Source: Brevibacterium sp. CCUG 69071 (GTDB lineage: Bacteria > Actinomycetota > Actinomycetes > Actinomycetales > Brevibacteriaceae). From it: a stretch of 64,000 nucleotides of DNA. This document shows positions 1 through 13,014 of the stretch, one piece after another. The stretch is from assembly GCF_021023135.1 (NCBI RefSeq), contig NZ_PGFV01000003.1, positions 310,001 through 374,000 of the forward strand, read 5' to 3'. The first letter of the stretch is position 1. Every line of letters begins with the position of its first letter. The notes below the pieces were generated by a model. That model made no database searches. It saw only the letters and a list, made by a program, of their open reading frames with translations, and had not been told where the DNA came from. The position numbers and the translations under genes are program-made.

Positions 1-210
1 ATCCTGCAGAGGCCCGGCCGAACCGCCGAGGACGATGAGAGCAGAGAAGCCGTCGGCACCGGCCCGGGTCAGTCCCTCGGCGGGGATCTCCTCCCCCAGG
101 TACGGGCGGACGGTCACCACCTCGGCGCCGGCCTCGGCCAACCACGTGCCGAAGCGTTCGGGACCGGTGCCGTTCTCATGTTCGATGACGAGGATTCTCA
201 CGTGAGTCAT
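1..210 (-). CDS. Type 1 glutamine amidotransferase-like protein, N-terminal part (cut by window edge)
   Basis: Seventy codons are visible, from an ATG at 208-210 to the window edge. The protein opens RILVIEHENGTGPERFG, then reaches a beta strand ending LIVLGGSAGPLQD. This is the N-terminal Rossmann-like part of class I glutamine amidotransferases (GuaA N-domain type). The catalytic Cys and His-Glu would lie beyond the edge. A GTG at 199-201 is an alternative start. It lies 71 bp behind the SDR gene on the same strand and may be the last visible gene of the amine-catabolism operon, perhaps acting on gamma-glutamyl compounds. That role is inference; the substrate cannot be told from this fragment. 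Confidence 0.7.
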   Translation of the reverse strand, partial: MTHVRILVIEHENGTGPERFGTWLAEAGAEVVTVRPYLGEEIPAEGLTRAGADGFSALIVLGGSAGPLQD

Positions 211-281
211 GGCCCCAATCCTCTCACCCGTGCACCCCGGCTTCGCGGTGAGCACGCCGTTGCTCGACGGTGAGCGCGCCG

Positions 282-1058
282 CTACTCGGCCGTGACGTAG
301 GCCGAGGAGATCCCGCCGTCGACGGTGAACGACGAGGCGTTGACGAAGGAGGAGTCGTCGCTGGCGAGGAAGGCCACGGCCGCGGCGATCTCCTCGGGTT
401 CGGCGAAGCGGCCGCCCGGGCAGTGCACGAGTCGACGCTGCGCCTGTACGGGATCCGAGGCGAAGAGCTCGCGCAGCAGCGGCGTGTTCACCGGTCCCGG
501 GCACAGGGCATTGACCCGGATCCCGTTCTTCGCGAACTGGACGCCGAGTTCCCGGCTCATCGACAGCACGCCGCCCTTCGAAGCCGAGTACGAGATCTGC
601 GAGGTCGCCGCGCCCATCAGGGCGACGAATGAGGCCGTGTTGATCACCGAACCGGAGCCCTGCTTGACCATCTGCTCGAGCGCATACTTGCTGCACAGGT
701 AGACCGAGGTGAGGTTGACCGTCTGCACCTTCGTCCAGGCTGCGATGTCGGTGGTGAGGATCGAATTGTCGTCGGTCGGGTTGATGCCGGCGTTGTTGAA
801 GGCGACGTCGACGCGCCCGTAGACCTCGACGGTGCGCGCGAAGAGGTTCTTCACGTCCTCCTCGTCGGCGACGTTGACGCGCACGAACAGCCCGCCGAGC
901 TCCTCGGCGATCTGCGGTCCGCGGACTTCGTCGAGGTCGGCGATGACGACCTTCGCGCCTTCCTCGGTCAGCCGGCGGGCGCTGGCCAGGCCGATGCCCG
1001 AGGCGCCGCCGGTGATGACGCAGATCTTGTCCTTCAGGCGTGTTGCTGCAGTGGTCAT
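282..1058 (-). CDS. SDR family NAD(P)-dependent oxidoreductase
   Basis: A 258-residue classical short-chain dehydrogenase. The cofactor motif TGGASGIG is at residues 16-23, NNAG at about 88-91, the catalytic Ser near 143, and YSASK with Tyr157 and Lys161; the C-terminus ends VDGGISSAYV as in FabG-like enzymes. An acidic residue after the second strand (IADLDE) suggests NAD preference. It lies 92 bp downstream of the aldehyde dehydrogenase in the same direction. In a gamma-glutamylation route for ethanolamine, an alcohol must be oxidised to an aldehyde before the aldehyde dehydrogenase can act. This enzyme is the obvious candidate in the cluster, but that assignment is inference from context. 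Confidence 0.88.
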   Translation of the reverse strand: MTTAATRLKDKICVITGGASGIGLASARRLTEEGAKVVIADLDEVRGPQIAEELGGLFVRVNVADEEDVKNLFARTVEVYGRVDVAFNNAGINPTDDNSILTTDIAAWTKVQTVNLTSVYLCSKYALEQMVKQGSGSVINTASFVALMGAATSQISYSASKGGVLSMSRELGVQFAKNGIRVNALCPGPVNTPLLRELFASDPVQAQRRLVHCPGGRFAEPEEIAAAVAFLASDDSSFVNASSFTVDGGISSAYVTAE

Positions 1059-1150
1059 GGTGCTCCTTCTGATCGCGCGTGGGTGTCTGTAGATTTCAAT
1101 GACTGTCTGTGGGTGTCAGCGGGTGTCGGTTCGATGGGTGTCGGCGCCGG

Positions 1151-2521
1151 TCAGCGGCCGACGGGTCGGGTGGCGAAGAAGACGTTCTTGACCTCGGTGA
1201 ACGCGGCGACGGCATCGGGGCCGAGCTCGCGGCCGAGTCCCGACTGCTTGTACCCGCCGAAGGGCGTCGAGTAGCGGACCGAGGAGTGCGAGTTCACCGA
1301 GAGGTTGCCCGCCTCGACACCCCGGGAGACCCGCATCGCCCGGTCGAGGTCGTTCGTCCAGATCGAGCCCGAGAGTCCGTATTCGGTGTCGTTGGCGATG
1401 CGCAGAGCGTCGGCCTCGGTGTCGAAGGGGACGACCGAGAGCACGGGTCCGAAGATCTCCTCGGTGAAGTCCGCCGAGGCGGTGGTGGCCGGCCGCAGCA
1501 CGGTCGGCGGGAACCAGAATCCCGGACCGTCCGGAGCGGATCCGGTGAATGCAACCTCGCCGGCGGCGACGTAGCCGGCGACCTTCTCCCGGTGTGCCGC
1601 GGTCACCAAGGGTCCCATGTCCGTGTCCGGGAGGCTGGGATCGGCGCAGCTGAAGGCCGAGACGGACTCCTCGAGTGCGGCCATGAATTCCTCATAGACG
1701 CCGCGCTGGATGAGAAGCCGGGAGCGCGAACAGCAGTCCTGTCCCGAGTTGTCGAAGACGCCGCCGGGGGCGGCGGCCGCGGCACCGGCGATGTCAGCGT
1801 CGTCGAAGACGATGTTCGCGTTCTTGCCCCCGAGTTCGAGGGTCAGGTTCTTCACCTGGTCGGCGCACCCGGCCATGATCTTCTTGCCCACCTCGGTGGA
1901 GCCGGTGAAGACGACCTTGCGCACGCTCGGGTGGGTGACGAAGCGCTCCCCCACGATGGATCCCTTGCCGGGGATGATCGTCAGCACTCCTTCGGGCAGG
2001 CCGGCCTCGAGGGCGAGCTGCCCGATGCGGATCGCCGTCAGCGGGGTGATCTCGGCGGGTTTGAGCACGACGGTGTTGCCGGCGGCCAGGGCCGGGGCGA
2101 ATCCCCAGCCGGCGATCGGCATCGGGAAGTTCCAGGGGACGATGACACCGACGACGCCGAGCGGTTCGGCGAAGGTGATGTTCACCCCGCCGTCGACGGG
2201 AATCTGCCGCCCGAAGAGCCTCTCGGGCACCGCCGCGTAGTAGTCGATGACGTCGCGGACATTGCCCGCCTCCCAGGTCGCGTTCGAGATCGTGTGACCG
2301 GCATTGGCGACCTCGAGCGCGGCGAGTTCGTCGATCGCGCCGTCGACCGCCGAGGCGAAGCGGCGCAGGATCCTTCCGCGATCGGCCGGGGCAACGTTCC
2401 GCCAGGTCTCGAATGCCTTCTCCGCCTTCGCGATCGCGGCGTCCGTGGCCGCGAGGTCGGCGAGTTCGACCTCCTCGATCGGCCCCTCGGTGGCGGGGTT
2501 GATCACCGTGTATGTGCTCAA
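1151..2521 (-). CDS. NAD(P)-dependent aldehyde dehydrogenase
   Basis: A 456-residue ALDH-superfamily enzyme. Visible are VPWNFP (about 128-133), the ELGGK motif with general-base Glu near 229, and GQDCC with the nucleophilic Cys at about 263. The start is TTG at 2519-2521, whose TTGA overlaps the TGA of the upstream hydrolase gene, so the two are translationally coupled. By analogy with PuuC/IpuI-type enzymes and the ethanolamine route of Streptomyces, it probably oxidises a gamma-glutamyl-amino-aldehyde to the acid, for example gamma-glutamylglycine. Family assignment is firm; the substrate is inferred from the neighbouring ligase and hydrolase. Confidence 0.9.
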   Translation of the reverse strand: MSTYTVINPATEGPIEEVELADLAATDAAIAKAEKAFETWRNVAPADRGRILRRFASAVDGAIDELAALEVANAGHTISNATWEAGNVRDVIDYYAAVPERLFGRQIPVDGGVNITFAEPLGVVGVIVPWNFPMPIAGWGFAPALAAGNTVVLKPAEITPLTAIRIGQLALEAGLPEGVLTIIPGKGSIVGERFVTHPSVRKVVFTGSTEVGKKIMAGCADQVKNLTLELGGKNANIVFDDADIAGAAAAAPGGVFDNSGQDCCSRSRLLIQRGVYEEFMAALEESVSAFSCADPSLPDTDMGPLVTAAHREKVAGYVAAGEVAFTGSAPDGPGFWFPPTVLRPATTASADFTEEIFGPVLSVVPFDTEADALRIANDTEYGLSGSIWTNDLDRAMRVSRGVEAGNLSVNSHSSVRYSTPFGGYKQSGLGRELGPDAVAAFTEVKNVFFATRPVGR

Positions 2522-3330
2522 AGCTGTTCTCTCCTCATGTCTGTCGCGGGTGTCGAGGCGCCGTCGGATCCTCGACGCCGGGCATATCGCAGGGCGTATC
2601 GCCGGGCCTCATCGACCAGGGCTCGGACGACTCGGTTGTCGGCGGGGTCGTGCTCGGGATGCCATTGCACGGCGAGGAGCCACCCGGCCTCCTCTTCCGG
2701 CGGCGTCCCGTCGACTGCCGAAGCCGGTTCGATAGTCTCGATCAGCCCTTCGGGACTGCGCCCGGTGACCACGAGTCCCTCGCCGAGGCGGTCGACGCCC
2801 TGATGGTGATAGCAGGGTGCCGTCGTCGTCTCCCCGAGGATCTCCCTGGCCAGCGACCCGGGTTCGGTGGTCACCGTGACCTCGCCGTAGACGCCGGGGC
2901 TCGGCTGGTAGTCGGAGTGCCCGAGAGTCTCGGGCAGGTGCTGGATCAGGCTGCCGCCCGCGGCGACGTTGATCACCTGGAGTCCGCGGCAGATGCCGAG
3001 CACGGGCAGTCCTCGCTGCCGCGCGGCGGTCAGCAGCATGGTCTCGCTGTCGTCCCGGAAGGGGTGGGAGACCGTGAGAGCGTGCGGTTCCTGCGCGTAG
3101 GCGACCGCGTCGACGTCGGCCCCGCCGGCCAGCAGGAGCCCGTCGACCCGATCGAGCACCGCAGGCGCCTGTCCGTGCGGCGGCAGGAGGACCGGGATCG
3201 CCCCGCACGCGCTGACCATTCGCACGTAGTCGGCGGGGATGAGGGCCGCCTCGGTGTCCCAGACTCCCCACCGTGCCTGCTGCAGATAGCAGCTGATGGC
3301 GATGACGGGTTCAGAGTCGTTCGAAGCCAC
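2518..3330 (-). CDS. Gamma-glutamyl-gamma-aminobutyrate hydrolase family protein (PuuD-like, peptidase C26)
   Basis: A class I glutamine-amidotransferase-fold hydrolase of about 270 residues. The nucleophile elbow VLGICRGLQVIN carries the catalytic Cys, and the partner motif is VQWHPEHD near the C-terminus. An ATG at 3358-3360 gives ten more residues, but the GTG at 3328-3330 has a good Shine-Dalgarno (GGGAGAGGA) just upstream and starts right before the conserved PVIAISCY, so I prefer it. Either start overlaps the end of the upstream ligase gene (3311). Expected role: cleavage of the final gamma-glutamyl conjugate, releasing glutamate and the oxidised amine (glycine if the substrate is ethanolamine). 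Confidence 0.88.
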   Translation of the reverse strand: MASNDSEPVIAISCYLQQARWGVWDTEAALIPADYVRMVSACGAIPVLLPPHGQAPAVLDRVDGLLLAGGADVDAVAYAQEPHALTVSHPFRDDSETMLLTAARQRGLPVLGICRGLQVINVAAGGSLIQHLPETLGHSDYQPSPGVYGEVTVTTEPGSLAREILGETTTAPCYHHQGVDRLGEGLVVTGRSPEGLIETIEPASAVDGTPPEEEAGWLLAVQWHPEHDPADNRVVRALVDEARRYALRYARRRGSDGASTPATDMRREQL

Positions 3331-4729
3331 GGATCCTCTCCCAGTCGGTGACGGTCGCATTGTAGTCGGCGAGTTCGATGTCGGCGGCGTGGACGTAGTG
3401 CCGGACCACGTCTGCGCCGAGGACGTCCCTGGCGATCTGCGAGTTCTCGAGCCGGTCGCGGGCTCCCTGCAGGGTGGTCGGCAGGCGCGTGGCGCCTGCG
3501 GTGTAGGCGTTGCCTTCGGTGATCGCCGGCAGCTCGAGTTCGTTCTCGATCCCGTGCAGTCCCGCGGCGACGAGGGCCGCGGTGGCGAGGTAGGGGTTGA
3601 GGTCGGCCCCGCCGACGCGGCATTCCACGCGCAGCGAAGGACCGGATCCGACGACCCGGAAGGCGCAGGTTCGGTTGTCGAAACCCCAGGCCACGGCCGT
3701 CGGCGCGAAGGAGCCTTCGACGAAGCGCTTATAGGAGTTGATGTTCGGGGCGAAGAAGTAGGTGAAGTCCTCGATGCAGGCCAGCTGTCCGGCGATGAAG
3801 TGCTCCATCAGGGTCGAGAATCCGTGGTCCCGATCTCCGGCCATGACCATATCTCCGTCGGCGGAGCGGAAGCTCAGGTGGATGTGGCACGAGGAGCCCT
3901 CCTTCTGGTCGTACTTGGCCATGAAGGTGATCGACTTCCCGTGCTGGGCGGCGATCTCCTTCGCTCCGTTCTTATACACCGCATGGTCGTCGCAGGCCTT
4001 CAGCGCCGGCTGGTAGCGGAAGGTGATCTCGTGCTGGCCGAAGTTGCATTCGCCCTTCGCGCCTTCGACGAAGAGCCCGGCCCCGGCCATGGAGTTGCGG
4101 ATGTCGCGGAGCAGGGGTTCGACCCGCGCGGTGCCGAGCAGGGAGTAGTCGACGTTGTACTGGTTCGACGGGGCCACCTCGGTGTATCTGGAGGCGAAGC
4201 CCTGTTCATAGGAGGAGTCGAAGGTGATGAATTCGAGTTCGGTGCCCACGTGGGCGCTGAGCCCATGCTCGCCGAGGCGCTCACACTGCCTCTTCAGGAT
4301 CTGACGTGGGGAGGGAGCCACCTCGGCGCCGGTGGTCGTGAGCAGATCGCAGTTGACCATGGCCGTGCCCGGCTGCCAGGGGACGACGCGGAGCGTGGCG
4401 AGATCCGGCTTCATCACCATGTCGCCGTAGCCGGTCTCCCAGGACGAGACCTCGTAGCCGTCGACGGTGTTCATGTCGACGTCGACGGCGAGCAGATAGT
4501 TGCAGCACTCCGAGCCGTGGTCCATCACGTCCTCGAGGAAGAACTGCGCGCCGAGGCGTTTGCCCTGCAGGCGACCCATGTGGTCGGTGATGGCGACGAC
4601 GACGGTGTCGATGGCGCCCTCATCGGCCAGTCGGCGGAGCTCATCGACGGTGAGCGGTTCGGCCTGCTTTGATCCGTTCGGGGTGCGCTGCGGCGAGGTG
4701 GGAGAAATGGGGACCGGAATCTCTGTCAT
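3311..4729 (-). CDS. Glutamine synthetase family protein, gamma-glutamyl-amine ligase (GlnA4/PuuA type)
   Basis: A 472-residue glutamine-synthetase-fold ligase. It has an N-terminal beta-grasp (MGRLQGKRL), the C-terminal catalytic domain with a His-x-His segment SSCHIHLSF near residue 280, NSYKRFV, and FDNRTCAFRVV. It lacks the adenylylation-loop context of housekeeping GlnA. Relatives ATP-dependently join glutamate to amines: PuuA (putrescine), IpuC (isopropylamine), GlnA3 (polyamines) and GlnA4 of Streptomyces coelicolor (ethanolamine). A neighbouring permease that looks ethanolamine-type points to the GlnA4 activity. The start ATG is preceded by AAAGGAA. Family is sure; the amine substrate is inferred. 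Confidence 0.88.
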   Translation of the reverse strand: MTEIPVPISPTSPQRTPNGSKQAEPLTVDELRRLADEGAIDTVVVAITDHMGRLQGKRLGAQFFLEDVMDHGSECCNYLLAVDVDMNTVDGYEVSSWETGYGDMVMKPDLATLRVVPWQPGTAMVNCDLLTTTGAEVAPSPRQILKRQCERLGEHGLSAHVGTELEFITFDSSYEQGFASRYTEVAPSNQYNVDYSLLGTARVEPLLRDIRNSMAGAGLFVEGAKGECNFGQHEITFRYQPALKACDDHAVYKNGAKEIAAQHGKSITFMAKYDQKEGSSCHIHLSFRSADGDMVMAGDRDHGFSTLMEHFIAGQLACIEDFTYFFAPNINSYKRFVEGSFAPTAVAWGFDNRTCAFRVVGSGPSLRVECRVGGADLNPYLATAALVAAGLHGIENELELPAITEGNAYTAGATRLPTTLQGARDRLENSQIARDVLGADVVRHYVHAADIELADYNATVTDWERIRGFERL

Positions 4730-4768
4730 GCGTCGTTCCTTTGCTGTTGTGAGCGGGGTCGTTTGAGG

Positions 4769-6205
4769 TCACTTGAGGTCCTTCTCGGCGGCCTCGATCT
4801 GTGCGAACTCCTCCTCGGGGGCGCTGGCCACGAGGTGGTGGCGGGAGTAGAACCAGAAGTAGGCGAGCGCGACGAGGAAGACGGCGGCGGCGATGCCGGC
4901 GGCGAAGATGTCGACGAAGAAGGTGGCGATGACGGCCACCGAGGCGAGCACCAGGGCGATCGATGTGGTGACGATGCCGCCGGGGGTCCGATAGCCGCGG
5001 GTCAGCTCGGGTTCCTTGATGCGCAGGCGGATGTGGGAGAGGTTGAGCAGCACGTAGGAGACAGTGGCTCCGAAGACCGCGACGTTGAGGAGGACTCCCC
5101 CGTTGCCTTCGACGAGGATGGCGAGGATGAAGCCGATCGTGCCGGGGACGATGAGTGCGAGCACCGGGGTCTTGCGCTTTCCGGTCAGGGACAGCCATTT
5201 GGGCAGGTAGCCGGCTCGGGAGAGGGCGAAGAGCTGACGGGAGTAGGCGAAGATGATCGAGAAGAAGCTGGCGACGAGTCCGGCCAGTCCCGCCCAGTTG
5301 ACGAAGGTGGCCAGGGCCGAGTTGTCGCCGTAGGCGGTGCGCAGCGCCTCGGGGAGCGGATTGTCCGATTCCCCCATCGCCGAGGAGCCGGCGAGACCGG
5401 GGACCAGGGTGAGCATGAGCGCGCCGAAGATGACGAGGATCGCCATGGCTGTGATGATGCCGCGCGGCATGTCGCGCTTGGGGTTGGCCGATTCTTCGGC
5501 GGCCAGCGGGACTCCTTCGACGGCGAGGAAGAACCAGATGCCGAAGACGAGGGAGCCGAGCAGTCCGGAGATGCCCATGGGCAGGAAGGAACTCGAGCCG
5601 AGGGCGGCCGTGGGTTCGATGTCGAAGAGGTTGCTCGGATCGAAGTGGCCGATGGCGGCGACGACGAAGACGATGAGTGCGACGACCGCGATGGCGGTGA
5701 TGACGAACATCAGCCGCAGGGCCTCGCCGACGCCCCACAGGTGGATGCCGACGAAGACGGCGTAGGCGACGAGGTAGATGGTCCACACCGGCACCGAGGC
5801 GGGGAGGATTCCCAGCGCTTGGACGTAGCCGGCGATGAAGGTCGAGATGGCCGCGGGGGCCATGGTGTATTCGATGAGGATGGCCATGCCGGTGGCGAAT
5901 CCGCCGAGTGGTCCCAGGGCGCGGCGGGCGAAGCCGTAGCCGGCGCCGGCGGTCGGCAGGGTGGAGGAGAGTTCGGCGAGACCGAAGACCATGCACACAT
6001 ACATCAGGCCCATGAGCAGAAAGGCGATGAGGAGTCCGCCCCATCCGCCCTCGGCCAGGCCGAGGTTCCAGCCGGAGAAGTCGCCGGAGATGACGTAGGC
6101 GACTCCGAGCCCGGCGAGCAGGATCCAGCCGGCTGCGCCCTTCTTCAGCTGTCTCTTCTCAAGATAGTTGTCATCGACATTGCCGTATTCGATGTTTCTG
6201 CTCAT
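4769..6205 (-). CDS. APC-superfamily permease, ethanolamine permease-like
   Basis: A 478-residue polytopic transporter with about 12 hydrophobic segments. The N-terminal stretch YLEKRQLKKGAAGW, followed by YVISGDFSGWNLGLAEGGWGG, is the signature I associate with ethanolamine permeases (Eat family). Later segments include GAGYGFARRALGP and an acidic C-terminal tail. The reading frame is open back to 6295, but the ATG at 6203-6205 (MSRNIEYGN) is the plausible start; the upstream codons would overlap the operator region. First gene of the catabolic operon, divergent from the GntR regulator. Expected to import ethanolamine or a related small amine by proton or cation symport. Confidence 0.85.
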   Translation of the reverse strand: MSRNIEYGNVDDNYLEKRQLKKGAAGWILLAGLGVAYVISGDFSGWNLGLAEGGWGGLLIAFLLMGLMYVCMVFGLAELSSTLPTAGAGYGFARRALGPLGGFATGMAILIEYTMAPAAISTFIAGYVQALGILPASVPVWTIYLVAYAVFVGIHLWGVGEALRLMFVITAIAVVALIVFVVAAIGHFDPSNLFDIEPTAALGSSSFLPMGISGLLGSLVFGIWFFLAVEGVPLAAEESANPKRDMPRGIITAMAILVIFGALMLTLVPGLAGSSAMGESDNPLPEALRTAYGDNSALATFVNWAGLAGLVASFFSIIFAYSRQLFALSRAGYLPKWLSLTGKRKTPVLALIVPGTIGFILAILVEGNGGVLLNVAVFGATVSYVLLNLSHIRLRIKEPELTRGYRTPGGIVTTSIALVLASVAVIATFFVDIFAAGIAAAVFLVALAYFWFYSRHHLVASAPEEEFAQIEAAEKDLK

Positions 6206-6242
6206 AGCCGCCCTCAGCGTCCTGGGATGATCGGTGCGAAAA

Positions 6243-6296
6243 TTCAATGGATCACATTCAGACCATTGAACTGAATCGAATGTAATATGGATCACA
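6243..6296. promoter_or_regulatory. Nested inverted and direct repeats, probable GntR operator region
   Basis: Between the divergent permease (start 6205) and GntR genes lie three overlapping inverted repeats. TTCAATGG (6243-6250) pairs with CCATTGAA (6263-6270). ATTCAG (6256-6261) pairs with CTGAAT (6271-6276). ACATTC (6254-6259) pairs with GAATGT (6278-6283). ATGGATCACA is also repeated directly at 6247-6256 and 6287-6296, exactly 40 bp apart. The stretch is AT-rich against its surroundings. It most likely controls both promoters. Confidence 0.6.
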
Positions 6297-6371
6297 GCGC
6301 AGTGTCAAGGAGTTTCTGCGAGAGAATCTGACAGAGAATCAGAATGAGGCGAGTCGATGAAGGGGGTGTCG

Positions 6372-7130
6372 GTGGATCACGATGAGAGCACCGGTCGTCT
6401 GAGCGGCTCACCCAGACGCGGGGGCAATGTCTTCGAGCACACGATCGCCGAGCTGCTGCGCGCGATACGGCTCGGCCAGTATCTCGTCGGCGACAAGCTG
6501 CCGGCCGAGCGGGAGCTCGCCGCTCGGATCAAGGTCTCGCGGGCCACTCTGCGGCAGGCGCTGGGTGAACTCCAGACCGCGGGCATCGTCACGGTTCAGC
6601 GCGGCCGATACGGAGGGACCTTCGTCACTCGCCTGCCGAGTGCCGACACGGAGGAGCGGATCGATCCGGTCGAGCTCGACGATGCGGTGAGGTTCCGGCA
6701 CATCCTCGAAACGGCCGCGGCGCGGATCGCGGCCGAACGCGAGCTCACCGCGGAGGAGATCGCGAACCTGCGCGCTGCCGAGCAGGAATGCCGGGCCGCA
6801 CTCGGCGATCCGGCAGACAGTCCTGCACTGGTCGAGCCGGATGACGGGGCGGAGAGGTTCCGCGCCCTCGATGCCCGCTTCCACCTCACCATCACCGAAC
6901 TCACACGGGTGCCGTCACTGGTCACAGCCTCGGCGAACACTCGCTCACGGGTCAATGCCCTGCTCGATCGGATCCCCTTCATCCACACGAACGTCGACCA
7001 CTCGTGCTCTCAGCATCGCGCCCTCGTCGAGGCGATCCTCGACTCCGATGCCGACCGAGCCGCCGAGCTGGCCGCCCAGCACGCGGAGGGCACCGAACAG
7101 CTTCTGCGCGGCTTCCTCGAACAGCAGTGA
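6372..7130 (+). CDS. GntR/FadR-type transcriptional regulator
   Basis: About 252 residues. An N-terminal winged helix (GDKLPAERELAARIKVSRATLRQAL, then GIVTVQRGRYGGTFV) is followed by an all-helical FCD-type ligand domain with RFRALDARFHLTITEL and a late HRALVEAILDSD His cluster. An in-frame ATG at 6357 exists, but the GTG at 6372-6374 is preceded at good distance by AAGGGGG, so I favour it. Divergent from the permease operon, as in the comparable Streptomyces locus where a regulator gene adjoins glnA4. Expected to sense the amine or a pathway intermediate and bind the repeats at 6243-6296. Confidence 0.88.
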   Translation: MDHDESTGRLSGSPRRGGNVFEHTIAELLRAIRLGQYLVGDKLPAERELAARIKVSRATLRQALGELQTAGIVTVQRGRYGGTFVTRLPSADTEERIDPVELDDAVRFRHILETAAARIAAERELTAEEIANLRAAEQECRAALGDPADSPALVEPDDGAERFRALDARFHLTITELTRVPSLVTASANTRSRVNALLDRIPFIHTNVDHSCSQHRALVEAILDSDADRAAELAAQHAEGTEQLLRGFLEQQ

Positions 7131-7263: not shown

Positions 7264-8115
7264 ATGAAGATCGGTGATTTCGCCCGGCTCGGTCAGGTTT
7301 CGGTGCGGATGCTGCGCCACTATGAGTCGCTTGGACTGCTCGCCCCCGAGACGGTCGACAGGTTCAACGGCCATCGCAGCTATTCGGTGGCACAGCTGCC
7401 ACGACTGAACAGAATCATGGCATTGAATTCGCTCGGCATCGAGCTGAAGAAGATCGCCGTGCTGCTCGACTCGGACCTCAGCACCGCAGGTCTGGTCGAC
7501 ATGCTGCGCCTTCGTCGTCAACAGCTGCGCGCCGAACAGTCGGCCGCGGCCGCCAAGCTGGCCGATGTCGAGTTTCGGCTGGCACTCATCGGAAGGACGA
7601 CCATGGAACACCCTGACATCATCATCAAGGAACTGCCTGCGGAGAGAATCCTCGGACGGACCGTCAGCCTCGGCGAACCACCATTCGACACCTCAGAGAT
7701 CGGCCCGCTGTTCGGAGCCGTGGCGGCCGAGATCGCCGAGTCCGGAGGCGATCCGAACATCGGAGTCGCCCTCTATTCCGACGTCGAATCGGGCACCGAA
7801 GTCACTTGCGGCTACCGCACGAACACGGCCGCGGACGACGATACGGGATCGGACGACGGCACAGTGCCGGGTGGTACTGCGGGCCATGCACTCGAGATCA
7901 CAGAACTGGCCGCCTGTACTGCCGCGACCCTCATCCACAAGGGAACGATGAGTCGCATCGGCGCCAGCTGGCAGCATCTCTCCGAGTGGTGCATCGTCCA
8001 GGGCTATGCGCTCAGCGGCCCGTGCCGGGAGATCTACCTCGAGGCCGGAGACGGCACCGACGACTCCGATCAGTCGGGGTGGATCGTCGAACTGCAGCAG
8101 CCGATCTCGGCCTGA
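7264..8115 (+). CDS. MerR family regulator with GyrI-like effector domain
   Basis: A 283-residue protein. The N-terminus MKIGDFARLGQVSVRMLRHYESLGLLAPE is a MerR winged helix-turn-helix; a coiled-coil dimerisation helix (LRLRRQQLRAEQSAAAAKLADVE) follows. From about residue 115 (IIIKELPAERILGRTVSL) there is a GyrI/SOUL-like effector-binding domain, as in BmrR/TipA-type regulators of multidrug response. No target gene is adjacent. It may control itself through the dyad at 7189-7207, or a distant efflux gene. Confidence 0.88.
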   Translation: MKIGDFARLGQVSVRMLRHYESLGLLAPETVDRFNGHRSYSVAQLPRLNRIMALNSLGIELKKIAVLLDSDLSTAGLVDMLRLRRQQLRAEQSAAAAKLADVEFRLALIGRTTMEHPDIIIKELPAERILGRTVSLGEPPFDTSEIGPLFGAVAAEIAESGGDPNIGVALYSDVESGTEVTCGYRTNTAADDDTGSDDGTVPGGTAGHALEITELAACTAATLIHKGTMSRIGASWQHLSEWCIVQGYALSGPCREIYLEAGDGTDDSDQSGWIVELQQPISA

Positions 8116-8855: not shown

Positions 8856-9341
8856 ATGGTTTCGGACAATGTGTTTGCGAAGATCGATCGCCTCGCCGGC
8901 GGGAAGAAGGCCGGCATCCTCGTCGCGCCCGAAGGACTCCGCCTGCCGAAGACGAGGACCGCATTCCGGTGGATCACGTGGCTGCTGTCCTTCGAGCTGG
9001 TGCTCGGGTTCGGCGCCGTCGTCGTCGCCGTCATCATCTCCCAGTCGGGCGACCCCGTGCCCTTCGCCGTGTGGATGCGCACGGTCGTCGTCCTCGGCAT
9101 GACGGCAACACTGTTCTACTTCTTCTGGCGCGCGACGAAGGGGTACTACTGGGGCTACCAGAGGCTGCGCCTGTTCACGCAGATCTTCCCGGTGATCACC
9201 CTGGTCATGGCCGCAATCCCGGGCCTCTATCCCGTGTGGATGATCACCGAGCAGATCGTCTTCAGTCTCGTCATGATCGGCGTCGGCGACTTCCTCACCA
9301 GCGATCACATGCGTGAGGTGTTCCGGAAACCGGAGGACTGA
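8856..9341 (+). CDS. Small integral membrane protein of unknown function
   Basis: A 161-residue protein. A charged N-terminus is followed by about four hydrophobic helices: AFRWITWLLSFELVLGFGAVV; MRTVVVLGMTATLFYFFW; LRLFTQIFPVITLVMAAIPGL; MITEQIVFSLVMIGVGDFL. A short cytoplasmic tail ends FRKPED. Codon use is normal and the frame is full length, so it is a real gene. I do not recognise the family. It is divergent from the DUF2871 gene. Confidence 0.75.
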   Translation: MVSDNVFAKIDRLAGGKKAGILVAPEGLRLPKTRTAFRWITWLLSFELVLGFGAVVVAVIISQSGDPVPFAVWMRTVVVLGMTATLFYFFWRATKGYYWGYQRLRLFTQIFPVITLVMAAIPGLYPVWMITEQIVFSLVMIGVGDFLTSDHMREVFRKPED

Positions 9342-9436
9342 GCAGGGCCGGTCGGAGTGCCAGCAGGCCGGTCGGCGAGGCGGCGGGCCGGGCGGTCGGA
9401 TCTACGGGACCGGCCGAACCTGATCGTCGTCCGGCC

Positions 9437-10927
9437 TCAGCCGGCGACGAGCCGCCGCGCCTCCTCCTGGTGCGCCGCGATGAGCGCCTCCTTGTCGATC
9501 GGAGCGCCATCCGCACCGACGGCATTGCCGTCGAGCACGCGCCACTGCCCGCCGACCATCACCCGATCTGCCTTCTCGGCGCCGCAGAGCACGAGGGCCG
9601 GAATCGGATCGTGGGAACCGGAGAAGGCGAGACCGTCGAGGCGGAACATCGCGAGGTCGGCCTGCTTGCCGACCTCGATGCGGCCGATGTCCTCGCGTCC
9701 CAGCGCCGCCGCCGATCCGCGGGTCGCCCAGTCGAGTGCGCGAGCGCAGGTGACAGCCTCGGCGCCGTAACGCAGACGTTGGATGTAGAGAGCCTGTCGG
9801 ACCTCGCGGATGAGGTTCGAGGCATCGTTCGAGGCGGATCCGTCGACGCCGAGTCCGACGTTGACCCCGGCATCCTCGAGTTCGACGGCACGGGCGATGC
9901 CCGAGGCCAGACGCATATTCGAGGTCGGGCAGTGGGCCACGGAGGCACCGGCCTCGCCGAGGCGGGTGATCTCCTCATCGTCGAAGTGCACACCGTGCGC
10001 CAGCCAGGCTCGTTCACCCAGCCACCCGACCGATTCGAGGTAGTCCACCGTCCGCAGGCCGAAGCGTTCCCGGCAGAAGTCCTCCTCGTCGAGAGTCTCG
10101 GCCAGGTGGGTGTGCAGGCGGACGTCGAGCTCCTCGGCGAGGATCGCGCTGTCACGCATGAGTTCGGTGGTCACGGAGAACGGTGAGCAAGGGGCGAAGC
10201 CGATCTGCACCTGCGCCCCCGCACCGCGTTCGTGGTAGGTCTCGACGAGGCGGCGGGAGTCGGCGAGGATGACCTCCGCGTCCTGCACGGTCTGCTGCGG
10301 CGGGAGTCCGCCGTCCTTCACCCCGAGTGACATCGACCCGCGGGTGAGCATCGCCCGCATCCCCAACTTCCGCACGACGTCGACCTGGATGTCGATCGCA
10401 TCGTCCATCCCCGTCGGGAACAGGTAGTGATGATCGGCGGCGGTCGTGCAGCCGGATTCGAGGAGTTCGGCCATCGCAACGGTGGTGGCGAGTTCGAGAG
10501 CGCGCGGAGTCAGCCGGGCCCAGACCGGGTAGAGGTTCGTCAGCCACCCGAACAGCGGCAGATCCGCGACCGGGGCCCAGGCCCGCGTCAGGGTCTGATA
10601 GAAGTGATGATGGGTGTTGATCAGCCCGGGGGTGATCACGTGAGCGCTCGCGTCGACGATCTCACCAACGGACTGAACTCCCCCGGCGGGTTCCCCACCT
10701 GCGGGAATGAGCTCCAGGATGGTTCCGGTCGCCCGGTCGACGACGATCCCCCGCGCTGCTCGTCCCGGATCGACGCCGGCGCCGAGGTGGACGGCGAGTG
10801 GGTCACGGAGCCACACGGCCGAAGTGGCGGGTGTGGCAGCAGCGGGTGCGGGTGTGGCAGCAGCGGGTGCGGGTGTGGCAGCAGCGGGTGCGGGTGTGCC
10901 AGGTGCAGATTGCGGGTCGAAGGACAT
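9437..10927 (-). CDS. Amidohydrolase, probable 8-oxoguanine deaminase
   Basis: A 496-residue member of the ATZ/TRZ amidohydrolase family. The metal motif is GLINTHHHFYQTLTRAW, with later HTHLAET, HGVHFDDEEI and LGVDGSASND elements, the order expected for the cog0402 group. Closest remembered relatives are 8-oxoguanine deaminases (hydroxydechloroatrazine hydrolase-like). Divergence from an NCS2 purine permease supports a purine-salvage role. The frame is open 79 codons further upstream, but ATG 10925-10927 has AAAGGCGAC before it and is chosen. Residues after the start hold three perfect PAPAAAT heptapeptides from a 21-bp DNA repeat. Confidence 0.85.
   Translation of the reverse strand: MSFDPQSAPGTPAPAAATPAPAAATPAPAAATPATSAVWLRDPLAVHLGAGVDPGRAARGIVVDRATGTILELIPAGGEPAGGVQSVGEIVDASAHVITPGLINTHHHFYQTLTRAWAPVADLPLFGWLTNLYPVWARLTPRALELATTVAMAELLESGCTTAADHHYLFPTGMDDAIDIQVDVVRKLGMRAMLTRGSMSLGVKDGGLPPQQTVQDAEVILADSRRLVETYHERGAGAQVQIGFAPCSPFSVTTELMRDSAILAEELDVRLHTHLAETLDEEDFCRERFGLRTVDYLESVGWLGERAWLAHGVHFDDEEITRLGEAGASVAHCPTSNMRLASGIARAVELEDAGVNVGLGVDGSASNDASNLIREVRQALYIQRLRYGAEAVTCARALDWATRGSAAALGREDIGRIEVGKQADLAMFRLDGLAFSGSHDPIPALVLCGAEKADRVMVGGQWRVLDGNAVGADGAPIDKEALIAAHQEEARRLVAG
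10830..10892. repeat. Three perfect 21-bp tandem repeats inside the deaminase N-terminus
   Basis: Copies at 10830-10850, 10851-10871 and 10872-10892 are identical and in frame, encoding PAPAAAT on the minus strand. Such a perfect microsatellite can change length without breaking the frame. Confidence 0.9.
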
Positions 10928-11430
10928 CAGGTCGCCTTTCGGTTCGGATCCGGTCGGGACCGCGTCTGCCGGGCCCGACGTGCGGCGACAACGCTGGGGC
11001 CATCGCCTCCAGCTCAGGTTTTCCGGCGTCTGCTGCTCCGCCGTTCGGGATACCAGGCTCTGTCCGAAGACTTTGCCCTCACAGTTTCGTCCACACACGG
11101 CGGCGAAGATCTGTCCCGAGGGTTTGCGCCGGAATGGCATACCGGCAAGACTGCACTCTAGCATGTGTCGCGGCTCACGAAAATGGGTTGCAGTCAGACC
11201 GCAATTCCCCTAAAGTTTTGCGATAAGGAAATAAGATTTCATATCTTGGAAAGATTTTCTTGGCTATCGCTTTGAACATCGTTATAGCTGTGATGATGGT
11301 TGAGGAAGCCGCAGATATGAGATCACCGATTCCCGATGCGCGGCGTCGAAGCGTCAGTCCTGACTCTTCGTGGCCATCGGCGCAGAGAGAACCGAATCAG
11401 ACGATTCGGCAGAGCTCAACGGAGAGATAG
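10928..11430. promoter_or_regulatory. Divergent deaminase/purine-permease intergenic region
   Basis: No gene is supported here. On the minus strand a TAGAGT -10-like box (11155-11160) would give the deaminase mRNA a leader of about 220 nt. On the permease side the stretch 11210-11300 is strikingly AT-rich and contains AAGAT-N5-ATCTT (11233-11247) and the distant pair GCGATA (11220-11225)/TATCGC (11265-11270). A purine-responsive protein or RNA could act here, but I recognise no known riboswitch core. Confidence 0.4.
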
Positions 11431-13014
11431 ATGTCGGCACCCAAACAGTCCACGAAGAAGGCACTCCGTCCGGAGGACGAGCGCCTCTCCGTCGGATCCT
11501 CATTCGCCTACGGACTTCAGCACGTCCTCACCATGTACGGCGGCATCATCGCCGTGCCGCTCATCATCGGCAACGCGGCCGGGCTCGACCCCAACGGCAT
11601 CAGCATCCTCATCGCATCATGCCTGTTCATGGGTGGTCTGGCGACGATACTGCAGTCTTGGGGCGTCCCCTTCTTCGGGTCCCAGCTGCCCCTGGTTCAG
11701 GGCGTGTCCTTCGCCGGTGTCGCGACGATGACTTCGATCCTCGCCGGTGGGGACGGACTCCCGGCGGTCTTCGGTTCCGTCATCGTCGCCTCGGTGATCG
11801 GCCTCGTCGTCGCTCCGGCATTCGCCCTCATCGTCAAGTACTTCCCGCCCGTGGTCACCGGCACCGTCATCACGACGATCGGACTCTCACTCATGCCGGT
11901 CGCGGCGGGGTGGGCGATGGGCGGCAACGCCGAGGCGGCCGACTACGGCAGCGCACGCAACATCCTCATCGCCGTCGGCACCCTCGCAGTCGTGCTCATC
12001 CTCAGCAGGATTCCAGTTGCGACGGTCTCTCGTCTTTCAATTCTGCTGGCAATCGTCATCGGCACCATCGTCTGCGCGATCTTCGGATGGGCAGACTTCT
12101 CGGAGGTCTTCGCTCGCGGCATCTTCGCCTTCCCTGAGCCCTTCGCGTTCGGCTGGCCGACATTCTCCGCGGCGGCGATCATCTCGATGTTCATCGTCAT
12201 CATCGTCACCTTCGCCGAGACCACTGCCGACATCATCGCCGTCGGCGAGATCGTCAAGACCAAGGTCGACTCGAAGCGGATATCCAATGGCCTGCGCGCC
12301 GACATGCTGTCTTCAGCTGTGTCGCCGGTGTTCAATTCGTTCACTCAGTCCGCCTTCGCGCAGAACGTCGGACTCGTTGCGATCACCGGTGTGAAGTCGC
12401 GCTTCGTCGTCACCGCCGGTGGTGTGATCCTCTTGGTCCTCGGCCTGCTGCCGGTCATGGGCGGCGTGGTCGCGGCGGTTCCCTCTCCGGTGCTCGGCGG
12501 TGCGGGGATCGTCCTGTTCGGCACGGTCGCCGCGTCCGGCATTCGCACCCTGTCGAAGGTCGAGTACGAAGGCAACCTCAACATGATCATCGTAGCCGTG
12601 TCCTTGGCCTTCGGCATCATTCCGGTCGTCGAGCCCGATTTCTACAACTCGTTCCCCTCCTGGGTCGGCATCATCCTGCACTCGGGCATCTCTTCGGCGA
12701 CGCTCATGGCGGTGCTGCTCAACCTGGTCTTCAATCACATCGGAGCCAAGTCCAAGGACCGTTCCGATCGCTCGGTATTCGTCGCAGGCACGGGCCGAGT
12801 CATCCGCAAGGAAGAGCTGCAGCGACTCGTCGATCACGAGGCGATTCTCACCGAGGGCGATACCGTCAAGGACGGCAAGATCGTCGACTGCAACGGCGAA
12901 GAGGTCCCCGTCGTCACCGACGAACAGCACGAGAAGGTCATCGAAGCGGCCAAGAACGGCGAAGTCAAGACCCAGGACGACGTCCGCCGTGTGATCCAGG
13001 AGGACGAGGTCTGA
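11431..13014 (+). CDS. NCS2 family purine (xanthine/uric acid) permease
   Basis: A 527-residue transporter of about 12-14 membrane segments. The motif GLQHVLTMYGG opens the first core helix, and the substrate-site segment FAETTADIIAVGEIV matches the ETTGD-like signature of nucleobase:cation symporter-2 proteins (XanQ, UacT, PbuX). About 85 hydrophilic residues extend the C-terminus beyond the last helix. The start is ATG at 11431 with GGAGAG upstream. Next to a probable 8-oxoguanine deaminase it likely imports xanthine, urate or a related purine by proton symport. Confidence 0.9.
   Translation: MSAPKQSTKKALRPEDERLSVGSSFAYGLQHVLTMYGGIIAVPLIIGNAAGLDPNGISILIASCLFMGGLATILQSWGVPFFGSQLPLVQGVSFAGVATMTSILAGGDGLPAVFGSVIVASVIGLVVAPAFALIVKYFPPVVTGTVITTIGLSLMPVAAGWAMGGNAEAADYGSARNILIAVGTLAVVLILSRIPVATVSRLSILLAIVIGTIVCAIFGWADFSEVFARGIFAFPEPFAFGWPTFSAAAIISMFIVIIVTFAETTADIIAVGEIVKTKVDSKRISNGLRADMLSSAVSPVFNSFTQSAFAQNVGLVAITGVKSRFVVTAGGVILLVLGLLPVMGGVVAAVPSPVLGGAGIVLFGTVAASGIRTLSKVEYEGNLNMIIVAVSLAFGIIPVVEPDFYNSFPSWVGIILHSGISSATLMAVLLNLVFNHIGAKSKDRSDRSVFVAGTGRVIRKEELQRLVDHEAILTEGDTVKDGKIVDCNGEEVPVVTDEQHEKVIEAAKNGEVKTQDDVRRVIQEDEV

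Follow-up and report, generated by a model that had tools for sequence, protein, structure and literature searches.

Which amine is broken down by the gene cluster at the start of a 64,000-nt stretch of the Brevibacterium sp. CCUG 69071 genome, and which enzyme would carry out each step? The stretch (contig NZ_PGFV01000003.1, here C14:310001-374000, in a genome of 4.13 Mb; hereafter the window) opens with a run of minus-strand genes that a first-pass annotation, made from the letters alone, had read as an operon for ethanolamine catabolism by gamma-glutamylation, including a short-chain dehydrogenase/reductase (SDR) for alcohol oxidation. We consider it highly probable that the window holds an actinobacterial GlnA4-type operon for ethanolamine catabolism by a B12-independent gamma-glutamylation route, because the phylogeny of its ligase, the family of its permease, the linkage of the SDR to the ligase, and the absence of EutB and bacterial microcompartment (BMC) shell genes all fit this reading. 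The pathway is not new: an SDR-including route has been in print since 2019 for the Streptomyces cluster (PMC6529630). Among the papers listed by literature searches combining the genus with ethanolamine, none was titled on this cluster in Brevibacterium.

The run consists of genes for a permease, a ligase, a PuuD-like hydrolase, an aldehyde dehydrogenase (ALDH), the SDR and a second class-I amidotransferase, with a GntR/FCD gene divergent from it. The members listed in the first-pass annotation (permease, ligase, SDR, ALDH, PuuD-like hydrolase and GntR) are all present and have matching profiles. The features, with the evidence for each, are as follows.

4769..6205, minus strand: ethanolamine-type APC permease; above the TIGR00908 ethanolamine permease equivalog cut-off (516.1 versus 381.75 bits); ATG column conserved in a 17-row alignment.
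3311..4729, minus strand: GlnA4-type gamma-glutamyl(ethanol)amide synthetase; PF00120; ligase tree; GlnA4 residues for metal, glutamate and ATP conserved.
2518..3330, minus strand: PuuD-like class-I amidotransferase/peptidase C26, predicted gamma-glutamylglycine hydrolase; PF07722 at 181 bits; Cys in GICRG, and HPE.
1151..2521, minus strand: aldehyde dehydrogenase, predicted gamma-glutamyl-aminoacetaldehyde dehydrogenase; PF00171 at 519 bits; ELGGK, and Cys region GQDCC.
282..1058, minus strand: SDR, predicted gamma-glutamylethanolamide dehydrogenase; PF13561/PF00106; NF004713 at 451.9 bits, above 404; TGGxxGxG, NNAG and YSASK; linkage to the ligase.
1..210, minus strand: second class-I amidotransferase, 5' part; whole gene at L004:13455-14210 (minus strand), 251 aa.
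6357..7130, plus strand: GntR/FCD regulator, EpuRI-like, divergent; PF00392 and PF07729.
6246..6267, minus strand (wider palindrome 6243-6270): predicted operator AATGGTCTGAATGTGATCCATT; form AATGGT-N10-ACCATT; alignment, and spacing and score tests.
6279..6308, minus strand: predicted sigma-70-type promoter; TTGACA at 6308-6303, TACATT at 6284-6279; TTGAC and TACA invariant in the 17-row alignment.

Within the operon, adjacent reading frames overlap or lie at most 92 bases apart, with a gap of 39 bases between permease and ligase on the operon strand, an overlap of 4 bases between hydrolase and ALDH, and gaps of 92 bases between ALDH and SDR and 71 bases between SDR and second amidotransferase. 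The hydrolase probably starts at GTG 3330, which has GAGAGGA ahead of it and gives a product comparable to an orthologue that begins MASNDSDP; its overlap with the ligase is 20 bases with this start and 50 bases with the listed one. For the permease, ATG 6205 is a likelier start than that of the listed ORF, which extends to 6295, a probable correction. The second amidotransferase, called partial in the first-pass annotation, is cut by the edge of the window only and is complete in the genome.

In the proposed route, ethanolamine would be imported by the permease and coupled to glutamate by the glutamine synthetase (GS)-like ligase at the expense of ATP, giving gamma-glutamylethanolamide. Using NAD(P), the SDR would then turn the alcohol into an aldehyde, from which the ALDH would make gamma-glutamylglycine, and the PuuD-like hydrolase would free glycine and glutamate. 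Glycine could enter the glycine cleavage system, whose gcvP was found in the genome. As the likely repressor, the divergent GntR protein would act on a palindrome that closely follows the -10 box.

The same four steps were proposed by Krysenko et al. 2019 (PMC6529630) for a Streptomyces cluster that includes a short-chain dehydrogenase, and the ligase step was shown there: GlnA4 of S. coelicolor produces gamma-glutamylethanolamide, is specific for ethanolamine among the amines tested, and has a Km of 0.47 mM. As described in the same paper, a glnA4 mutant of S. coelicolor did not grow on ethanolamine, and a permease of S. pristinaespiralis was helpful for its use. In its Discussion, SCO1611 is proposed for oxidation of the alcohol, SCO1612 for that of the aldehyde and SCO1615 for the hydrolysis; the legend to Fig. 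2 names a short-chain dehydrogenase and a glutamine amidotransferase. Hence the assignable SDR step that the first-pass annotation put forward, while supported by the linkage described below, had already been proposed in 2019 for Streptomyces, which that annotation missed. The Streptomyces glnA4 cluster (SCO1610-SCO1615) and ours have in common the ligase, ALDH, short-chain dehydrogenase, glutamine amidotransferase, divergent regulator, an optional permease and the four proposed steps. They differ in build: in the Brevibacterium lineage to which the window belongs (clade 1) the catabolic genes form a single run with the permease first, whereas most named Streptomyces loci carry the genes for hydrolase and permease as a separate, divergent unit, and the window has an extra amidotransferase downstream.

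The identity of the ligase is central to this reading. In a tree of 44 rows it falls within a 34-row actinobacterial GlnA4 group together with Streptomyces (100/99), while the IpuC of Paenarthrobacter pairs off separately with a second ligase from another Brevibacterium (L082); the long branches of this tree (the genome's own GS1 and GS2, and the IpuC pair) may be misplaced relative to each other. PMC6529630 names metal-, glutamate- and ATP-binding residues of S. coelicolor GlnA4, as well as an F replacing the flap residue E327. By eye on the alignment, with constant offsets of 8 and 10, the former map to E164, E166, E227, E234, H282, H284, R335, R358, E369 and R371 of the window's ligase, all invariant in 11 rows, and the flap-position F to F341, nearly invariant in the same rows. 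Compared with the window's proteins, those of named Streptomyces loci are 59-66% (ligase), 59-72% (ALDH), 68-72% (SDR) and 41-46% (PuuD) identical, and the permease, where found, 54-62%. The locus thus carries the features of a GlnA4 cluster, namely a GlnA4-group ligase, an adjoining SDR, ALDH and class-I amidotransferase, and a divergent GntR regulator.

If the SDR belongs to the pathway, it should accompany the ligase across genomes. We compared five sets of loci: 18 other clade-1 Brevibacterium loci; 16 loci of a second Brevibacterium lineage (clade 2, whose ligase occurs in 17 genomes, G049 being left out with its SDR on another contig); 40 phylum loci; 80 named loci (the best 80 of 594 confirmed, L145 duplicating L066); and 20 distant loci, with ligase identities of 43-51%. 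The phylum and distant loci are 60 of 103 places outside the window, each taken with its flanks; the upper part of that list supplied 40, for the most part from long contigs, and the lower part the other 20. An SDR at least 45% identical to that of the window is found no more than 6.5 kb from the ligase in 18/18 clade-1, 16/16 clade-2, 39/40 phylum, 78/80 named and 14/20 distant loci, and one of the two misses among the named loci (L209) is a contig of 4 kb. Orthologous clusters that never contain an SDR, the outcome that the first-pass annotation held up against its own proposal, are therefore not what we found, because nearly all close GlnA4 loci have one. The nearest other SDR in the genome is 41% identical.

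The linkage is tightest within the genus. All 18 other clade-1 loci have ligase, PuuD, ALDH and SDR in the order of the window, and within 6.5 kb there are also the permease (16/18), GntR (15/18) and the second amidotransferase (15/18), one locus being cut by a contig end. The ligase occurs in 36 of 57 Brevibacterium genomes, all of which also have the SDR, while three of the 21 ligase-less genomes hold SDR fragments only (Fisher p 4e-12 for co-occurrence, ignoring relatedness). Two of these fragments sit at contig ends. The third (G037; L245 8911-9607) is a deletion scar, in which the 3' part of GntR joins the 3' part of the SDR, the intervening cluster is gone, and an amidotransferase match follows. 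From the conserved linkage we infer that in much of Actinomycetota the gamma-glutamylethanolamide dehydrogenase is this SDR. The second amidotransferase is, by its distribution, an optional part of the cluster: it lies near 2/80 named loci (one Brevibacterium, one Nesterenkonia), with weak matches near 1/40 phylum and 6/20 distant loci, and in L074 a MerR gene intervenes between it and the cluster. As it is found near the cluster mainly in Brevibacterium, we dropped it as the true gamma-glutamylglycine hydrolase in favor of PuuD.

Several observations weigh against an ethanolamine pathway. The family name of the permease is no proof of its substrate, and NF004713, the NCBIfam family matched by the SDR, is named for a different reaction (3-oxoacyl-ACP reductase). 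ALDH, PuuD and ligase fall under the cut-off of every NCBIfam family among the matches listed (for ALDH, 25 of 42). The Streptomyces rows and loci compared come from species other than S. coelicolor, so that the kinship of the ligase to GlnA4 rests on these. A GntR match is absent near the ligase in 21/40 phylum and 19/20 distant loci. Six of the 20 distant loci lack an SDR inside 6.5 kb, two of the six having one near 7 kb, and there are two true exceptions to the linkage: L127, where the ligase was the one gene found of those sought, and L202, with ligase and PuuD only. The latter (8986-11056) is from Pseudonocardia thermophila and has a PuuD-like gene beside the ligase, with ALDH and SDR matches absent nearby.

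SDRs, moreover, often act on secondary alcohols and often prefer them, which would suit an operon degrading another amino alcohol (1-amino-2-propanol, alaninol or 3-aminopropanol, for example) by the same chemistry, with the SDR oxidising that alcohol; an identity of only 59-66% to the named Streptomyces ligases leaves room for such a shift. We regard this as unlikely. A secondary alcohol would become a ketone, leaving the ALDH without a substrate, and the permease meets the ethanolamine equivalog TIGR00908. The specificity of S. coelicolor GlnA4 among the amines tested (PMC6529630) points the same way.

Catabolism of isopropylamine of the Ipu type is far less probable still. The annotated ipuC region of Paenarthrobacter aurescens pTC1 (L141) likewise combines a GS-like ligase with an SDR, an ALDH and amidotransferases, yet it also has a cytochrome P450, a ferredoxin and a reductase, and its ligase is 39% identical to that of the window, which stands apart from IpuC in the tree. 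Both IpuC-like loci have a P450. Searches with that of L141 found nothing in the window or the 16 kb extending upstream of it, and no hit closer than 6.5 kb to the ligase in any of the five sets, two weak ones (27-28%) lying just past this limit, in L256 and L266. We dropped this reading with the ligase outside the IpuC pair and the P450 not found. The other IpuC-like locus (L082; G044:C1:4079652-4098968) belongs to another Brevibacterium; its P450 is 64% identical to that of P. aurescens pTC1, and the cluster is probably for isopropylamine.

Putrescine (Puu) or other polyamine catabolism has equally little chance: PuuA-, PuuC- and PuuD-like domains are present, and all score far under the equivalog cut-offs (ligase 194.7 versus 650, PuuC 347.7 versus 850, PuuD 64.1 versus 266), which led us to drop it; there is no PuuB-like oxidase among the proteins of the operon, the part of the genome searched for PuuB, and the SDR would have no evident role on a glutamylated diamine. 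The Eut metabolosome (EutBC), which shares the substrate ethanolamine, was dropped as well, with EutB in 0/57 Brevibacterium genomes and no BMC shell protein in the window's own genome, the one genome searched; the absence of eutBC and microcompartment genes noted in the first-pass annotation holds to that extent, EutC not having been searched for.

How might the ethanolamine operon be controlled? Within 6.5 kb, the ligase has a GntR match in 15/18 clade-1, 16/16 clade-2, 19/40 phylum, 63/80 named and 1/20 distant loci. EpuRI, a negative regulator of glnA4 in S. coelicolor (PMC6529630), bound eight promoter regions in gel shifts, including those of glnA4, epuRI itself and polyamine-linked genes (PMC8998196). 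Because of this breadth, EpuRI may serve more than the ethanolamine cluster and is perhaps not dedicated to it. Beside GntR in the window is a MerR/GyrI-like gene (7264-8115), a neighbor in several clade-1 loci only.

In an alignment of the GntR-permease intergenic region from 17 Brevibacterium rows, that of the window included, TTGAC and TACA are invariant at promoter spacing, and AATGG-N12-CCATT or a near form lies just downstream of this promoter. Exact half-sites at N12 occur at two places in the window's own genome, one of them in this operon; a scan of this genome for further operator sites gave 9 places with two mismatches, again with one in this operon. The palindrome AATGGT-N10-ACCATT also precedes clusters in other actinobacterial families. 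A 14-position score of at least 11 was reached upstream of the ligase at 82/152 loci (2 of 154 being too short), compared with 8/141 downstream and 45/760 shuffles, a partly circular result, as the consensus was chosen after the sites had been seen. A fairer test takes the half-sites from Brevibacterium and asks for their spacing at non-Brevibacterium loci. Among 119 such loci, 13 exact pairs were found upstream of the ligase over spacers of 4-20, nine of them at N12 (p 5e-9 for the excess, the loci being related), and none in the downstream control stretches, which are absent or shorter at loci cut by contig ends. With one mismatch allowed, N12 accounted for 48/110 upstream versus 0/22 downstream pairs, with a second peak of 16 at N7. 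At 24 Streptomyces-like loci, whose PuuD gene (with or without that of the permease) points away from the ligase gene, we looked for sites with a score of at least 10, which is weak alone: 20 loci have one ahead of both units, and all 24 have one that coincides with the start of the PuuD/permease unit or directly precedes it.

The palindrome at 6246-6267 is therefore likely an EpuRI-type operator, a prediction from conservation and spacing. Term searches of the main text of PMC6529630, and of PMC8998196 for whole words, brought up no mention of an EpuRI operator or motif, the sole "binding site" in the former main text being a ribosome binding site, and a literature search found no paper titled on an EpuRI site. 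Within the literature searched, the operator sequence may thus be new.

Within Brevibacterium the cluster appears in two lineages. Clade-1 ligases occur in 19 genomes, that of the window included, and clade-2 ligases in 17; none of the 57 has both, and the two are not sisters in the ligase tree. In clade 2 the APC transporter is a different one; its gene is divergent from that of the ligase in L083 (TIGR00907 at 424 bits, under the cut-off of 598) and, by a weak match, in L088. This pattern suggests that the clade-1 and clade-2 clusters were acquired separately.

Is the same chemistry built from the same parts elsewhere? Records of Paracoccus, Sinorhizobium and Ruegeria show a related ligase (44-50%) beside an annotated iron-containing alcohol dehydrogenase (Fe-ADH) and an N-formylglutamate amidohydrolase, which in Paracoccus are PF00465 and PF05013 proteins. 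Neither Paracoccus protein has a match in the actinobacterial loci compared (E up to 1e-10) or in the window (E up to 1e-5), and neither family is among the domains of the operon's proteins. With these alphaproteobacterial and C. salexigens clusters, Phaeobacter included (PMC10132767), the Brevibacterium operon shares the overall proposed chemistry and a related ligase. It differs in that Fe-ADH replaces the SDR and N-formylglutamate amidohydrolase the PuuD-like enzyme there, their ALDH is distant (31-34%), and the Paracoccus, Sinorhizobium and Ruegeria records have RpiR or DeoR regulators versus GntR. Proteins of the Fe-ADH build in Phaeobacter were more abundant on phosphorylethanolamine (PMC10132767). 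A cluster on an Arthrobacter plasmid (L142 1560-6830) adjoins choline kinase, amidase and inositol monophosphatase family genes, and Ruegeria (L139) likewise has an inositol monophosphatase family gene.

A 2022 review (PMC9397018), which names an Fe-ADH for C. salexigens, lists SCO1611 and SCO1615 as orthologues of the PF00465 and PF05013 members from that species. Judged by family, they are replacements and not orthologues, because the same gene positions in other Streptomyces (L220) hold an SDR (PF13561) and a peptidase C26 (PF07722), and because the legend in PMC6529630 names a short-chain dehydrogenase and a glutamine amidotransferase. A dedicated literature search found no paper on Fe-ADH in glutamylated-ethanolamine routes, although PMC9397018 names one.

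Elsewhere in the window, an 8-oxoguanine deaminase gene (NF006055) divergent from that for a xanthine permease (TIGR03173) at 9437-13014 indicates purine catabolism.

Together, these comparisons make it probable that the pathway exists in two largely convergent builds sharing mainly the ligase, an actinobacterial one of SDR and PuuD type and a proteobacterial one of Fe-ADH and N-formylglutamate-amidohydrolase type, and that many Actinomycetota have an EpuRI-type GntR regulon with the conserved operator AATGGT-N10-ACCATT. The findings extend a published, partly tested pathway to Brevibacterium and correct the orthology table of PMC9397018. A concrete operator gives something testable and would allow regulon searches.

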